Shown here piece after piece: positions 16,753-47,428 of a stretch of 48,835 nt of DNA. Positions within the stretch are counted from its first letter, which is position 1, and each line of letters opens with the position of its first letter. The notes under the pieces are model-generated. The model searched no databases. It was not told the DNA's origin and saw nothing but the letters and a program-made list of their open reading frames with translations. The stretch is taken from positions 1 to 48,835 of the IMG/VR virus record IMGVR_UViG_3300008119_000478; one strand, given 5' to 3'. This DNA comes from a virus. The translations under genes were made by a program, and so were the position numbers.

Positions 16753-16754
<2 letters not shown>
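16747..16754 (-). promoter_or_regulatory. Late-promoter-like motif AATAAATA
   Basis: The minus strand reads AATAAATA 27 bases before the ATG at 16719, overlapping the stop of the giant upstream gene. It matches the T4 late element at seven of eight bases. It would give the beta-helix gene and its followers their own late transcript, separate from the 10.5-kb gene. Confidence 0.5.
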
Positions 16755-27246
<10,492 letters not shown>

Positions 27247-42128: not shown

Positions 42129-42157
42129 TTGACTTTATCCAAATTATCCTATATAAT
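42129..42157 (+). promoter_or_regulatory. Consensus sigma70 promoter of the right-hand operon
   Basis: TTGACT, a 17-base spacer and a perfect TATAAT. The transcript would start near 42164 and cover the small-gene operon starting at 42190. Confidence 0.85.
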
Positions 42158-42189: not shown

Positions 42190-42366
42190 ATGCGTTTACT
42201 GTTAGTTCCAGTCCTTTTGGTTCTATATGGTTGTGCAGGCTACCAACCATTATGTCCAGGTACTAGATCCTACGATCCGCAGGTATGCCGCGGAGAAAAG
42301 TTTCAAAGACTACCTAATTTTCAAAACGAAGCAATTATTAGACATCAACGTGGGGAGAGATGGTAA
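42190..42366 (+). CDS. Small lipoprotein
   Basis: 58 residues beginning MRLLLVPVLLVLYGCAGYQP, a signal peptide with lipobox at Cys15. The mature part carries two more cysteines (LCPGTRS, QVCRGE). First gene after a consensus promoter; the stop overlaps the next start (TAATG). A role in the host envelope, such as superinfection exclusion or lysis control, is possible but not shown. Confidence 0.7.
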   Translation: MRLLLVPVLLVLYGCAGYQPLCPGTRSYDPQVCRGEKFQRLPNFQNEAIIRHQRGERW

Positions 42367-42716
42367 TGGAACAGGCATTCAAAGAAATCACCAAATGGGA
42401 TGACGGTGTAACTACTGTTAACCATACCTATCTGTTCAACGGTGACAAGGCAGTTGCCTACATTCGATATGGCACCAGCGAACCATTTTGGTTTAAGAAT
42501 CCAATTAAGATTGACAAGCGTGGTCGCAAGTTTGAACAGGTTAGTAATGATTCATTTGCTCTGTCAATAAATGTCTTTACACCTAATAACATTAAAGAAG
42601 TAACAGGCAGTAATGGTACTAAGTACATTATTAATTTAGATGAGAATACCTGCACATGCCCGGGTTATACATATCGTGGCACTTGCAAACATGTTAAAGA
42701 ATTGGAACCTGCATGA
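42366..42716 (+). CDS. SWIM zinc-finger protein
   Basis: 116 residues. The C-terminal CTCPGYTYRGTCKH is a SWIM motif (CxC...CxH) that binds zinc and usually contacts DNA or protein. The N-terminal part looks like a small beta fold (YIRYGTSEPFWFKNP). I set the start at ATG 42366, which overlaps the upstream stop; 42360 is also possible. Probably a DNA- or protein-binding regulator made early. Confidence 0.8.
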   Translation: MEQAFKEITKWDDGVTTVNHTYLFNGDKAVAYIRYGTSEPFWFKNPIKIDKRGRKFEQVSNDSFALSINVFTPNNIKEVTGSNGTKYIINLDENTCTCPGYTYRGTCKHVKELEPA

Positions 42717-42911: not shown

Positions 42912-43448
42912 ATGATAGTCAAATCATATGACTATTCTAGTTTAATCACAGACAACGATGAAGAAGATGCTTGCCACATTATTAAAGGCATAATCGACGC
43001 TGGCAATTACTTTACCAACAGTCCTCCGTTTCAAACCAACGAGAATTTGTTTGGTAGGTCTGAAGCAGTTTGGCTAAAGTATCGTATGACATTCCTAACC
43101 AGTGTGTTCCTCTACTTAGGTAAGGAACACAAAGTAGCCAATATGATGGCTTGGTCGTTTATGAGTAATAAAGACTCACAACCAGATCCAGAAAAACTTT
43201 GGCATCATCATGACAAACACGGCATGAAAGGACTAAGTGGTATATTGTATTTGCATGTACCTGACATACACGCAGAGTCCGGAACAGAGATGGCTCCGAA
43301 CGGTCCTAAGGGCGATGGCAAGTTTTTTGTAGGGCCAAACAAACACTCTTGGAATATCTATCCTAGTGAAACTTGGCATAGGCCTGGCCCTATTAGAACT
43401 AACGACTATCGTTATACACTAGCAGTTGATGTAGGGTACTACGAATGA
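42912..43448 (+). CDS. 2OG-Fe(II) oxygenase-like protein
   Basis: 178 residues. WHHHDKHGMKGLSGILYLHV gives the HxD metal pair with the following beta strands, and ETWHRPGPIRTNDYRYTLAV gives the distal His and the Arg that holds 2-oxoglutarate. Phages carry similar enzymes for hydroxylation of protein or nucleic acid. I started at MIVKSYDYSS (42912); an ORF from 42861 runs through the upstream gene. The substrate is unknown. Confidence 0.65.
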   Translation: MIVKSYDYSSLITDNDEEDACHIIKGIIDAGNYFTNSPPFQTNENLFGRSEAVWLKYRMTFLTSVFLYLGKEHKVANMMAWSFMSNKDSQPDPEKLWHHHDKHGMKGLSGILYLHVPDIHAESGTEMAPNGPKGDGKFFVGPNKHSWNIYPSETWHRPGPIRTNDYRYTLAVDVGYYE

Positions 43449-43765
43449 ATATTACTGTTAAAAAAACTGACAAGAGATTCACTGGCTCGGACATATTCCA
43501 TTATGTTGTAGATATTAAAAATGGGTCTTTTCCTGTAATTGCTAATAGATTTAGTAAAGCTCAAAAACTCAAAAAGTTCCAAGAGGTTAGGGATTGGTGC
43601 ATACAAACTTGGGGCATGAGTTGTGAGCGTGAACACTACTTACAACTGCTAGGGGATGAATATGATGTTAATAGTCATTGGTGTTGGCACAGTGAGTTCT
43701 ACGACACTAAGATCTATCTACGCTCGGACAAAGAGGCCAATTGGTTTAAATTGAAATGGCTATGA
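43445..43765 (+). CDS. WFxLRW-array paralogue 1
   Basis: 106 residues. The middle VRDWCIQTWGMSC and the end DKEANWFKLKWL define a motif shared by the next five genes. No domain is known. Start ATG 43445 overlaps the upstream stop in ATGA form. Confidence 0.75.
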   Translation: MNITVKKTDKRFTGSDIFHYVVDIKNGSFPVIANRFSKAQKLKKFQEVRDWCIQTWGMSCEREHYLQLLGDEYDVNSHWCWHSEFYDTKIYLRSDKEANWFKLKWL

Positions 43766-43974
43766 CTATTACTATTGAAGATCGAGACCTAACTGCTATA
43801 CTATGTATAGTTGCAGAACTACGTGCTAGTGGGTTGGTGCAAGGGGTGCATTTTGACTTTGCCTACAATCAACGCCGTTGGGATCCTATGATTGGTGACG
43901 TTAAAGGCTTTACCAATTTTACATTCTACGAAGAAAAGTATTCAACTCTATTTGCATTAAAATATCTGTCATGA
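43762..43974 (+). CDS. WFxLRW-array paralogue 2 (divergent)
   Basis: 70 residues. The end YSTLFALKYLS corresponds to the WFxLRW end, with the Trp positions replaced. The central W-C part is missing. The start is placed at ATG 43762, matching the ATGA overlaps in the rest of the array, rather than 43756. Confidence 0.65.
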   Translation: MTITIEDRDLTAILCIVAELRASGLVQGVHFDFAYNQRRWDPMIGDVKGFTNFTFYEEKYSTLFALKYLS

Positions 43975-44297
43975 CTTTAGAAGAAGCAATATTAGAAGAC
44001 GCGGCACAGAAGATATCTGATGATATTGATAAACAGGTGCTTAAAGGTATGGGTTATGTTTTTGATTACTATCTAGAGCACGGCCGAGGCACAATCTACG
44101 GTCAGGAGTATCTCTCAGTGGCTCCAATAAATGCAGAAGGCATGTGGAGTGACATGATGGCATGGATGATTAAGACATTTGGTCCTACACCCTTTGATAG
44201 TATATGGACACCCGGTCAACGTTGGCATGTAAACAATGCCAAGTTTTGGTTCCGTGATGCTAAAGACCGTGATTGGTTTGTATTGAGGTGGTCATGA
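43971..44297 (+). CDS. WFxLRW-array paralogue 3
   Basis: 108 residues. The acidic N-terminus (TLEEAILEDAAQKISDDIDK) is followed by MMAWMIKTFGPTPFD and the end AKDRDWFVLRWS. The overlap with its neighbours is four bases at each side. Confidence 0.75.
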   Translation: MTLEEAILEDAAQKISDDIDKQVLKGMGYVFDYYLEHGRGTIYGQEYLSVAPINAEGMWSDMMAWMIKTFGPTPFDSIWTPGQRWHVNNAKFWFRDAKDRDWFVLRWS

Positions 44298-44527
44298 TCA
44301 AAGTGGACCCATACCCTTATATCAATACTGCACATTTTTATTGGCAGAATAACATTCCTTGTAATCCCGAGTCTTACCATGAAGGTCACTGGGATAAAGA
44401 TTTTGAGAATTGGTTATGTCCTATATATCGATGCCGAATCAAAGTTAGAAAAAAAGACGGCTCTATAAGATGGTTTGAATTTGATAATGATCAAGATGCC
44501 ATTTGGTTTAAACTGAGGTGGTCATGA
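44294..44527 (+). CDS. WFxLRW-array paralogue 4
   Basis: 77 residues from MIKVDPYPY. Contains FENWLCPIYRCRIKV and ends DQDAIWFKLRWS. The ATG at 44294 overlaps the previous stop (ATGA); the longer frame from 44273 is not needed. Confidence 0.75.
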   Translation: MIKVDPYPYINTAHFYWQNNIPCNPESYHEGHWDKDFENWLCPIYRCRIKVRKKDGSIRWFEFDNDQDAIWFKLRWS

Positions 44528-44805
44528 CGGGATTTGCAAGCAAACGATCAATGTCTGCACAAGCATTTATGCACATGTACAAACAGCCTACTAAGATCAT
44601 TTGGCATCAACTGCCCGGACGCAAGCTCAAAGCCACTTGGTTGCCGCAAGCAAGAGGATTTGAAATGGGATTAAAAGAATCCGATATGGATCCAATCCAA
44701 AAGTGGTGCCAGGATTCAAACTGTGGCAAACGTATTAGTTTTGATATGTTTCAATTCAAAACAGATAAACAGATAACAATGTTCTTATTAAGGTGGAGTT
44801 CCTAA
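44524..44805 (+). CDS. WFxLRW-array paralogue 5
   Basis: 93 residues from MTGFASKRS. Contains DPIQKWCQDSNCGKRISFD and ends TDKQITMFLLRWSS. The basic N-terminal half is longer than in the sisters. Confidence 0.75.
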   Translation: MTGFASKRSMSAQAFMHMYKQPTKIIWHQLPGRKLKATWLPQARGFEMGLKESDMDPIQKWCQDSNCGKRISFDMFQFKTDKQITMFLLRWSS

Positions 44806-45020
44806 TGATTTTAAAAACATGTGAAGTAGGTATGTTTAGACTTCCAGGCATTACTATTGAGGCTGAAGAAGAAGAAACTATTACAGAAGAACAACTTAAA
44901 GAAATGGAAGATTGGTGTAACAGTGAGTTTGGCAAAGGTATGCGTATGACTGAAAGACTGTTCAGCTTCCGAAAAGAAAGTCAAAGGGATTGGTTTATCT
45001 TAAGATGGAGTAAAACATGA
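44805..45020 (+). CDS. WFxLRW-array paralogue 6
   Basis: 71 residues from MILKTCEVG. An acidic helical stretch (EAEEEETITEEQLKEMEDWC), then FGKGMRM and the end SQRDWFILRWSKT. The ATG overlaps the previous TAA (TAATG). Confidence 0.75.
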   Translation: MILKTCEVGMFRLPGITIEAEEEETITEEQLKEMEDWCNSEFGKGMRMTERLFSFRKESQRDWFILRWSKT

Positions 45021-45363: not shown

Positions 45364-45751
45364 AGGAATAAACTCAAGCGGACGCTACTTAACTGTATCA
45401 GGAGGAAGCCCTTCTAGTACTTACATCAGTCCAGGTAGTGTTGGTGCGGGAATGTTACGATATAATAGTAATATGACCTGCATTGAAGTCAATGACGGCA
45501 ACATGTGGAAACAATTAGAAACAGGGTATGCAACTGTTGAGTTGAATCCAGAAACAGAGAGTCTATTAGAATGGGCAAGGCTAGAACGTACTAAGCAACG
45601 AGTCCTTGCAGAACGTATTGAACAAAACCCTGCGCTGAAGAAAGCCTATGAAGCAGTACTACGAGCACAGGAAAACTTTGATATCCTAGATACGATTGCA
45701 GGCAATGAAGCTCCTGGCATAGTTGTAGGCTATAACTTTAACACACCATGA
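45356..45751 (+). CDS. Hypothetical 131-residue protein
   Basis: An N-terminal Ser/Gly-rich beta part (GSVGAGMLRYNSNMTC, then EVNDGNMWKQL) followed by a long helix (LLEWARLERTKQRVLAERIE). The N-terminal part is like short beta modules of phage structural proteins. No name is known to me. The start overlaps the previous gene. Confidence 0.6.
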   Translation: MIKGINSSGRYLTVSGGSPSSTYISPGSVGAGMLRYNSNMTCIEVNDGNMWKQLETGYATVELNPETESLLEWARLERTKQRVLAERIEQNPALKKAYEAVLRAQENFDILDTIAGNEAPGIVVGYNFNTP

Positions 45752-46557
45752 AGAAAACACTAGTGGCTATTGCCCTGTATGCCGCGGGCTTTTGTTATGC
45801 TGGAGGTAGCTATGCTCTCTACAACTACGATAGAGAAGAATGGCAAGTAAGCTATAACTCATACGAAGTACGTAGCATTGCCAGCATTACCAAACTGTTT
45901 ACTGCTGTGACTATCCTGCGCAGTGGTGTTGACTTAGACGAAAAGGTCAAGATCACAGGCAGGTCAAGTGGACGCTTCCCACGTGGCATGATGACCACTC
46001 GTATGGACTTAATGAAGGCCATGTTAATCTCTAGCGATAACCTAGCGGCTGAAACACTAGCCAATACCTACCCAGGTGGATTTGATGTCTACTTAGAAGA
46101 TGCTAATCGTTGGATCACCGGTTGGGGATTGATCAATACTCGTGTAGTAGATGCTAGTGGATTACTGGCAGGCAATGTCAGTAACGTAAACGATCTAGTC
46201 AAGTTTCTAGCAAAAATACAGGGCAACAGTGTTATCCGTGATATAACCAAAGAACGTAATACCACAGTGAGTGTGCCAAAAGGCAAGAAGACATTGACTA
46301 TTAATCTCAAGAACACTAACTCAACCTTGTTCCAGTTTGATAACATCCTAATCAGCAAGACTGGCACTACCAATGCCGCAGGCAAGTGTGTGGTTATGAT
46401 AGTAGAGAAAGCTGGAAGTCCTTATGCTGTGGTTATCCTTGGACAAAAGAACTCACAGGAACGAGCCACATTGGCTAGCAATCTAATTACCATTAAACCA
46501 AATCCAAAGCCAGTAGAAGTTGAACCTGTATCAATAGACTTTAAGTTTCCAATATAA
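45748..46557 (+). CDS. D-Ala-D-Ala carboxypeptidase-like (peptidase S11, PBP5 type) protein
   Basis: 269 residues. A likely signal peptide (MKKTLVAIALYAAGFCYAGG) precedes the three penicillin-binding motifs: SITK at 46-49 (nucleophile Ser46), SDN at 96-98, and KTG near 204 within ISKTGTTNAAG. The members of this family cut D-Ala from peptidoglycan stem peptides. A phage version might weaken the wall or change its cross-links before lysis or at superinfection. The C-terminal membrane anchor of PBP5 is absent. Confidence 0.85.
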   Translation: MKKTLVAIALYAAGFCYAGGSYALYNYDREEWQVSYNSYEVRSIASITKLFTAVTILRSGVDLDEKVKITGRSSGRFPRGMMTTRMDLMKAMLISSDNLAAETLANTYPGGFDVYLEDANRWITGWGLINTRVVDASGLLAGNVSNVNDLVKFLAKIQGNSVIRDITKERNTTVSVPKGKKTLTINLKNTNSTLFQFDNILISKTGTTNAAGKCVVMIVEKAGSPYAVVILGQKNSQERATLASNLITIKPNPKPVEVEPVSIDFKFPI

Positions 46558-46928
46558 TGGCAGTATCCGGAATGAACGATAAGGGATTGGATTGGGACAG
46601 TAGGACTGGACCAATAGGTGCTCCACGAGGCAAGATTGATCATGAGGTTATCGTTATAGACAATCAAGCAGTTCGCATATACACAATAACGGCACACACA
46701 TTTAGGATGGGCGATGTTGAAGATCCAATACTCTATGCCGCCCAACCATTATATGAATGGGAGCATAGTGAAGAAGGACAATGGATTATGAAAAATGCAG
46801 TTGAAACACCAGAATGGCATAGACATGCAGATCCATTTAATTATGGATACCAATTTGCTATCACAGCCAAACTCAAAGAACAAGACTATACACATTGGCT
46901 AATAAAGTGGAAGAAGCTGTCCGCTTAA
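46557..46928 (+). CDS. Hypothetical protein related to the WFxLRW array by its end
   Basis: 123 residues. It begins MAVSGMNDKGLDWDSRTGP. Its end EQDYTHWLIKWKKLSA parallels the array motif, and EWEHSEEGQWI sits in the middle. It is probably a distant member separated from the array by four genes. ATG overlaps the stop of the PBP-like gene. Confidence 0.6.
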   Translation: MAVSGMNDKGLDWDSRTGPIGAPRGKIDHEVIVIDNQAVRIYTITAHTFRMGDVEDPILYAAQPLYEWEHSEEGQWIMKNAVETPEWHRHADPFNYGYQFAITAKLKEQDYTHWLIKWKKLSA

Positions 46929-46941
46929 ACTCAAAAAACTA

Positions 46942-46970
46942 TTGACAGGCCGCCCTATTGACTGTATAAT
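46942..46970 (+). promoter_or_regulatory. Consensus sigma70 promoter
   Basis: Perfect TTGACA, 17-base spacer, perfect TATAAT. Transcription would start near 46977 and run into the gene at 47000. Confidence 0.85.
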
Positions 46971-46999: not shown

Positions 47000-47428
47000 A
47001 TGGAATATCTAGTTGAAGCAACAACCCCGCAGGTTAGCAAGTTCTTAGACAGCCTAATGCCTTCTATGATTGAGCAATTGGGGTTGACTCGCAGTCGTAG
47101 GGCGGTACTGGTTAAAGTTACAGATGAAATTGAAGAAGGCATGCAAGGTGCTACACTCAATATCGAAATTGCAGACTGTTACCTAGTATTGATTAAACAA
47201 CCAAAACGAGTTACCAAAGCTAGCCTATTAGAAATGGGCACAACATTGGCACACGAAATGGTACACGTTAGACAATTGGCTAAAGGGCAGATGAAGTTCT
47301 TGCCAAATCAAGCAAGGATCTGGATGGGCAAGCGTTATAATAAGCGTACACATTATCTGGATCAACCCTGGGAATTGGATGCATTTGCACGTCAAGAGAT
47401 CTTATTTAGAAAGGCAATTGAATTATGA
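47000..47428 (+). CDS. Putative zinc metallopeptidase (HExxH)
   Basis: 142 residues. TTLAHEMVHVRQLAKGQM holds HEMVH (His85, Glu86, His89). A later PWELDAFARQ with Glu125 may be the third ligand. The layout resembles SprT-like or related phage metalloproteases. The target protein is unknown. Confidence 0.75.
   Translation: MEYLVEATTPQVSKFLDSLMPSMIEQLGLTRSRRAVLVKVTDEIEEGMQGATLNIEIADCYLVLIKQPKRVTKASLLEMGTTLAHEMVHVRQLAKGQMKFLPNQARIWMGKRYNKRTHYLDQPWELDAFARQEILFRKAIEL

Follow-up and report, generated by a model that had tools for sequence, protein, structure and literature searches.

The window analysed here, a stretch of 48,835 nucleotides that forms part of a 50.8-kb IMG/VR virus record, carries towards its end six small genes in a row. 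The locus raises the question of whether these genes are truly related, how they came to stand in series, and what such a set might do for the phage. A preliminary description, made from the letters alone, had read them as repeated duplicates that overlap by one or four bases and have a C-terminal end in common. All six are indeed present on the plus strand with such overlaps (Table 1). ATGA overlaps of four bases join g1 to g2, g2 to g3, g3 to g4 and g4 to g5, and the g5/g6 junction is TAATG, an overlap of one base; four-base overlaps are also found with the preceding gene (which ends at 43448) and with the next gene (which starts at 45017). The common end also stood up, each of the six genes carrying a homologous module, FxF...DAxWFxLRW. 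The central Trp-Cys segment held only in part, since the literal pair is found in g1, g5 and g6 only, whereas g4 has WLC and g3 has WM.

Table 1. Genes of the array, promoters, putative Shine-Dalgarno sequences and P-loop members. Positions are those of the window, except in the last ten rows, where locus and position are given.
Feature	Position	Strand	Remark
g1	43445-43765	+	106 aa; end WFKLKWL; 17 homologues in 17 loci
g2	43762-43974	+	70 aa; end LFALKYLS; 30 homologues in 30 loci
g3	43971-44297	+	108 aa; end WFVLRWS
g4	44294-44527	+	77 aa; end WFKLRWS
g5	44524-44805	+	93 aa; end MFLLRWSS
g6	44805-45020	+	71 aa; end WFILRWSKT
g7, outside the array	46557-46928	+	123 aa; end HWLIKWKKLSA; distant seventh member
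Candidate sigma70-type promoter, TTGACT-17-TATAAT	42129-42157	+	11/12 consensus match; upstream of the array's operon
Perfect sigma70 promoter, TTGACA-17-TATAAT	46942-46970		Downstream of the array, in front of the gene at 47000-47428
GAGG in the g3 LRW codons	44285-44288	+	Putative Shine-Dalgarno of g4 (start 44294)
GAGG in the g4 LRW codons	44515-44518	+	Putative Shine-Dalgarno of g5 (start 44524)
AAGGTGGAG in the g5 RW(S) codons	44790-44798	+	Putative Shine-Dalgarno of g6 (start 44805)
P-loop member	L009:328-726
P-loop member	L013:1915-2295
P-loop member	L014:5772-6155
P-loop member	L033:4606-5004
P-loop member	L041:2747-3082
P-loop member	L052:5942-6274
P-loop member	L085:4557-4952
P-loop member	L095:4749-5234
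P-loop member	L102:8976-9461
P-loop member	L194:7079-7558

A profile search with the end motif had been proposed together with the duplication idea. On the array strand of 204 related IMG/VR loci the module profile matched 1178 of 6591 open reading frames (ORFs), and none of the 7258 ORFs of the opposite strand gave a match, which places the motif beyond chance; the number of members is a lower bound, because many of the best sub-threshold matches resemble further divergent members. In a strict leave-out test, all relatives detectable by phmmer at E<1 were excluded from training and 2000 other ORFs served as background. Under these conditions g1, g4, g5 and g6 ranked first and g3 ranked fourth. 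The signals of g2 (E 0.019) and g7 (E 0.039) were weak, and these two are joined to the family through a g2-like intermediate (L014:6910-7149, E 3.5e-11) and a g7-like intermediate (L092:1760-2011, E 2.8e-5), respectively. When judged by the pattern FxF...DA-x-x-F-x-L-[RK]-W near the stop, g1 and g3 to g6 thus belong to the family by their own sequence and g2 and g7 by way of the intermediates, so that the gene suggested as a possible seventh is a distant member. Common ancestry, and with it an origin by repeated duplication, is supported by the leave-out tests and the profile matches. The module lies at the extreme C-terminus in nearly all members and the N-terminal parts vary; most members are 60-110 aa long, and their tryptophan content is 5.3%, compared with 2.2% in other ORFs. 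The isoelectric points span 4.5-9.8, and a reading of the proteins as DNA mimics was dropped because of this breadth. Judged by sequence, the array is one instance of a real, hitherto undescribed small-protein family that occurs in very large phages.

The search with g6 matched 18 IMG/VR loci, the g3 profile matched 283 IMG/VR stretches, and the nucleotide pattern TGGTTYNNNYTNAGGTGGNNATGA matched at least 119 stretches. Contigs with the family reach 383 kb, with up to 31, 28 and 22 matches per whole contig, and single 10-kb loci hold 21 and 25 members among the matches listed; arrays of 20 or more family genes are carried by uncultured phages. Among cultured phages, Sinorhizobium phage Phosso (PV764938, 469 kb) contains 43 member ORFs at E<=0.01, as found in a first scan with a profile free of Phosso sequence, and 47 after iteration. 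This is about 6% of Phosso genes (43-47 ORFs against 735 annotated features), yet the family has no name in Pfam, PHROGs or NCBIfam, and all members within the annotated stretches inspected are labelled hypothetical. Gp499-503 and about 40 other Phosso proteins resemble those of the window in their C-terminal module (DAMLFKLRW, DAMLFKLTW), in size and in tandem ATGA overlaps; unlike the window array, they are scattered over about ten clusters on both strands. PA5oct and Paride gave 3-4 matches each and Atu_ph07 about 8, and these matches are weaker, since the threshold was E<=0.1 and Phosso members had been included in the profile. Such relatives in named phages emerged only when more typical members and a module consensus were used as queries; tblastn of g1, g3, g7 and a g2-like consensus against named phages gave nothing usable, and no match to named phages was obtained at the DNA level. 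The g3 profile search found no relative in bacterial genomes. Searches of PHROGs, Pfam, NCBIfam, PADLOC and PDB sequence profiles gave nothing convincing for the family, PADLOC (no match) covering defence and not anti-defence proteins. A description of the family was absent from the literature searched, which falls short of proof of absence as subscription journals lie mostly outside that literature.

The codons of the conserved end have a further property. The LRW-S-stop sequence is typically written TTG AGG TGG TCA TGA. In a member set reduced at 60% identity, AGG encodes the arginine of LRW in 68 of the 92 members whose end overlaps a following gene, compared with 2 of 21 non-overlapping ones (Fisher p 6e-8); elsewhere in the same genes AGG accounts for 73 of 1073 arginine codons (7%). 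With AGG at this position, a GAGG comes to lie at −9 to −6 relative to the overlapping ATG, and Shine-Dalgarno tetramers are concentrated at −9 to −7 relative to this start codon. The AGGTGG form is present at the g3/g4, g4/g5 and g5/g6 junctions, and the g1/g2 (AAATGG) and g2/g3 (AAATAT) junctions are without it. Overlaps of −4 or −1 are found in about 420 of 743 successive member pairs. Both elements expected of coupled genes, an overlap of stop and start codons and a Shine-Dalgarno sequence within the last codons of the gene before, can therefore be read at the joints. Shine-Dalgarno tetramers were found in 84 of 169 family ATGA pairs and in 70 of 236 non-family pairs of the same loci, the latter being a control that includes spurious ORFs. 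Since non-family pairs have them too, the principle is that of ordinary translational coupling, here located in a conserved protein end. Translational coupling at NTGA overlaps has been reviewed (PMC12548453), and the arrays share with it the −4 or −1 overlap and a Shine-Dalgarno sequence inside the upstream gene; they differ from it in that the signal forms part of a conserved protein end, common to every gene of a long array. That this end is, as its codons indicate, also a translational joint for the following gene is a new observation. The array would be read from one message, on which ribosomes terminate and then restart at each joint. In Phosso the arginine position is often occupied by Thr or Ala, so that the AGG Shine-Dalgarno is less regular than in arrays of the window type.

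A strong AGG bias that appears only where a gene follows might also mean that the shared end is conserved chiefly as a nucleotide sequence, for its Shine-Dalgarno and stop-start signals, and has little bearing on the proteins. However, conservation reaches 20-40 residues further upstream (FxF, DA, W), members without an overlapping gene retain L[RK]W by using other codons, and synonymous positions vary in codon. As the whole explanation, a nucleotide signal is thus largely refuted and we consider it very improbable.

A comparison of 154 distinct loci gave many instances of genes that are directly coupled in one phage and stand 1-3 coupled genes apart in another, and many of reversed gene order; these events are not phylogenetically independent of one another. 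In the window g4 lies between g3 and g5; it is absent from this place in L010, L011 and L025, and has no full-length homologue in the first 97 loci. In L008 and L013, g1 and g2 stand in the opposite order. The clearest example comes from L074 and L083, in which 327 of 352 aligned bases are identical (93%) and a single gap of 188 bp, which opens within TTGAGGTGGT and closes at the second copy of this joint, spans exactly one gene (3n-4 bases). From this one-gene gap we infer recombination at the joints, and the alignments indicate that the arrays gain, lose and swap whole genes there. Recombination at near-identical joints would duplicate, delete or reorder genes and leave the translation of their neighbours intact; with the ribosome-binding and start signals of each gene lying in the shared end of the one before it, the genes could behave like cassettes. 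In integron gene cassettes, and in clustered anti-CRISPR and anti-defence genes, entire small genes are likewise acquired, lost and rearranged at a recurring joint or locus; the likeness is an analogy only, and the array joint differs in being coding and in doubling as a translation signal. A ribosome-binding site placed within a conserved protein end would provide a simple route to exchangeable gene sets without breakage of the operon. With the same conserved codons acting as joint, Shine-Dalgarno sequence and start, any cassette could follow any other and be expressed at once. That the C-terminal codons constitute such a cassette system, and that the phages use it to express a fast-changing set of dozens of host-directed effectors, is a possible but doubtful extension of these data.

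Diversifying selection had been suggested as the force behind the array, and this was not supported gene-wide. Orthologues gave a pairwise gene-wide dN/dS of about 0.09-0.25 where close comparisons were measurable, and up to 0.44 in distant comparisons, in which dS is near-saturated; the neighbouring genes gave 0.04-0.26. On the values from close comparisons, gene-wide diversifying selection is rejected and the orthologues are under purifying selection; from the sequences compared, the diversity stems from deep paralogy together with gene turnover. It could be argued that the arrays play no part in infection and consist for the most part of neutral or selfish duplications; their high turnover, the existence of orphans such as g4 and a copy number that varies from a few to more than 40 would allow this. 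Purifying selection on the orthologues speaks against such a view, and so does the finding that no frameshifted remnants were seen in the loci read, which makes neutral arrays a most improbable explanation.

Structures were predicted with AlphaFold2 for two of the six proteins. The g3 model (mean pLDDT 88.3) has an N-terminal helix (residues 3-26) followed by a beta-beta-alpha-beta-beta-alpha order (strands 34-42 and 45-53, helix 59-70, strands 85-88 and 91-94, helix 97-107), and the g2 model (mean pLDDT 92.4) is beta-alpha-beta-beta-alpha (strand 2-6, helix 10-22, strands 31-36 and 50-55, helix 58-68). Both are small alpha/beta plaits, and in both the shared end forms the last strand and the last helix. 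The predictions are thus compatible with the proposed kinship for these two proteins: with a strand-helix in common and a motif beyond chance, they do not look like the unrelated folds that would have spoken against it. Among the solved structures compared none was a good match; the g2 model resembles ACT and RRM plaits with Z up to 6.8 (Pes4 RRM4 6.4, others about 5), and with Foldseek its E value was never below 0.39. The g3 model is weakly like eIF1/YciH-type domains (Z 3.9-4.8) and a region of gyrase/topoisomerase IV (Z up to 4.9). According to the tool, a Z below 8 may reflect no more than a common arrangement, and even the best value is below the level that separates families. On topoisomerase IV the alignments of the two models cover overlapping residues (about 1240-1320), which is an indirect sign of a common fold. 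The closest predicted structures, and the only close ones, belong to uncultured Caudovirales phages (e.g. A0A6J5KVW6 and A0A6J5KVQ9; E 6e-7 for g3, E 2e-4 and TM 0.91 for g2); these proteins are uncharacterised and annotated singly, without function or family name.

The main rival reading arises from these models. The proteins may be small factors with an RRM-like or eIF1-like plait that bind nucleic acids or the ribosome and tune translation or the turnover of RNA in the infected cell, with paralogues differing in their RNA target. RRM and ACT domains among the best matches of g2, several eIF1/YciH-type domains among those of g3 and the high tryptophan content would fit such factors. Nevertheless, every Z lies below 8, and the range of isoelectric points argues against a uniformly basic surface. 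The g2 model has the strand order of the ACT/RRM ferredoxin-like plaits but, unlike them, is without the fourth core strand, and its match to them has a low Z and no counterpart in sequence. Binding of RNA or the ribosome is therefore rather unlikely as the common role, in our estimate.

The position of the module at the extreme C-terminus, behind differing N-terminal parts, would also suit a sorting or packaging tag by which variable cargoes are brought to one place, the virion or the replication site. The 336-aa Phosso protein gp569 (L220:2537-3547) likewise has the module near its end, with a weak match (E 0.002). Most members are, however, so short that the module makes up most of the protein. 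The record of PA5oct marks proteins detected by ESI-MS/MS, and the family genes have no such flag, though small proteins are easily missed. Callisto, a relative of the same group, is called non-nucleus-forming (PMC11079468), which argues against import into a phage nucleus there. A tag is improbable on balance. In Phosso, the nucleotidyl transferase gp498 (L219:6353-7921), encoded directly before gp499-503, ends in FFKSKDSAMIAKLRE, a similar but non-significant match (E 2). The module may be attached to larger enzymes as well.

The array had been thought to follow a consensus early promoter, but the perfect consensus lies downstream of it, and the best candidate upstream is located 1.3 kb before g1. 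A scan of the window at a lower threshold gave 20 promoter-like sites against 16.5 expected, and a perfect promoter is expected 0.07 times in the window, as estimated by shuffling. In 66 loci perfect sigma70 promoters were found 35 times on the array strand versus twice on the other, and a related 383-kb contig has 36 perfect sites against 1 for a reversed-pattern control. Phosso has no perfect sigma70 promoter. Since perfect sites are frequent in related large phages, host-type promoters seem to be used throughout these genomes; as a mark specific to the arrays they were rejected, being genome-wide in these phages and, in perfect form, absent from Phosso. A scan for the T4 late motif TATAAATA was uninformative.

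The explanation that we prefer, to which we would give a little less than an even chance in its full form, is that the array belongs to an undescribed family with a C-terminal strand-helix module, arranged in translationally coupled cassettes that are transcribed early by the host enzyme and encode replaceable host-directed effectors. Its parts are of unequal strength, the family, the arrays, the coding Shine-Dalgarno sequences and the cassette turnover being much firmer than the function. Among the least certain steps are that host RNA polymerase would transcribe the array early and that the proteins would act in takeover or anti-defence, each reaching its own target mainly through the variable part. 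The literature searched yielded nothing on the function or the targets of the family, or on when it is expressed. A role in host takeover or anti-defence is plausible and fits the size, the arrangement and the host-type promoters. Effectors would account for the replaceability of members, for orphans such as g4, for the wide range of copy number and for the bias of perfect sigma70 promoters to the array strand. On the other hand, those promoters occur all over these genomes and are missing from Phosso. Purifying selection and the retention of the g2, g3 and g6 types across many loci are also unusual for fast-evolving anti-defence genes. Two further points weaken the preferred explanation as a whole: non-family ATGA pairs also use Shine-Dalgarno tetramers, only less often, and the order swaps could stem from independent duplications. 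Because Phosso grows on Sinorhizobium meliloti, the question of whether such expanded families are anti-defence arsenals is directly testable.

In ten members a short P-loop segment forms the start of the protein and is joined to the usual module (e.g. GGIHPGEMTLYTAGRQTGKS, MTGRGSGKS). Three of them were tested, and two matched parts of a phage replicative helicase (E 3e-4) or, weakly, of a terminase (E 0.04); the segments look like captured fragments, or a nucleotide-binding decoy. The genes around the arrays provided some additional observations. The operon before g1 (42360-42716 and 42914-43448) contains a SWIM-like CxC...CxH pattern, seen by eye, and a weak 2OG-Fe(II) oxygenase match, and orthologues of both genes stand before g1 in L025. 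The gene at 45748-46557 has a signal-peptide-like start and a D-alanyl-D-alanine carboxypeptidase-like sequence, which is unusual for a phage and is found near arrays in several relatives; in a cluster of neighbouring genes from 14 loci, one member matches Peptidase_S11 (E 8e-30). Finally, an open reading frame of 3497 aa occupies 16753-27246 on the minus strand of the window, between tail-fibre-like genes.
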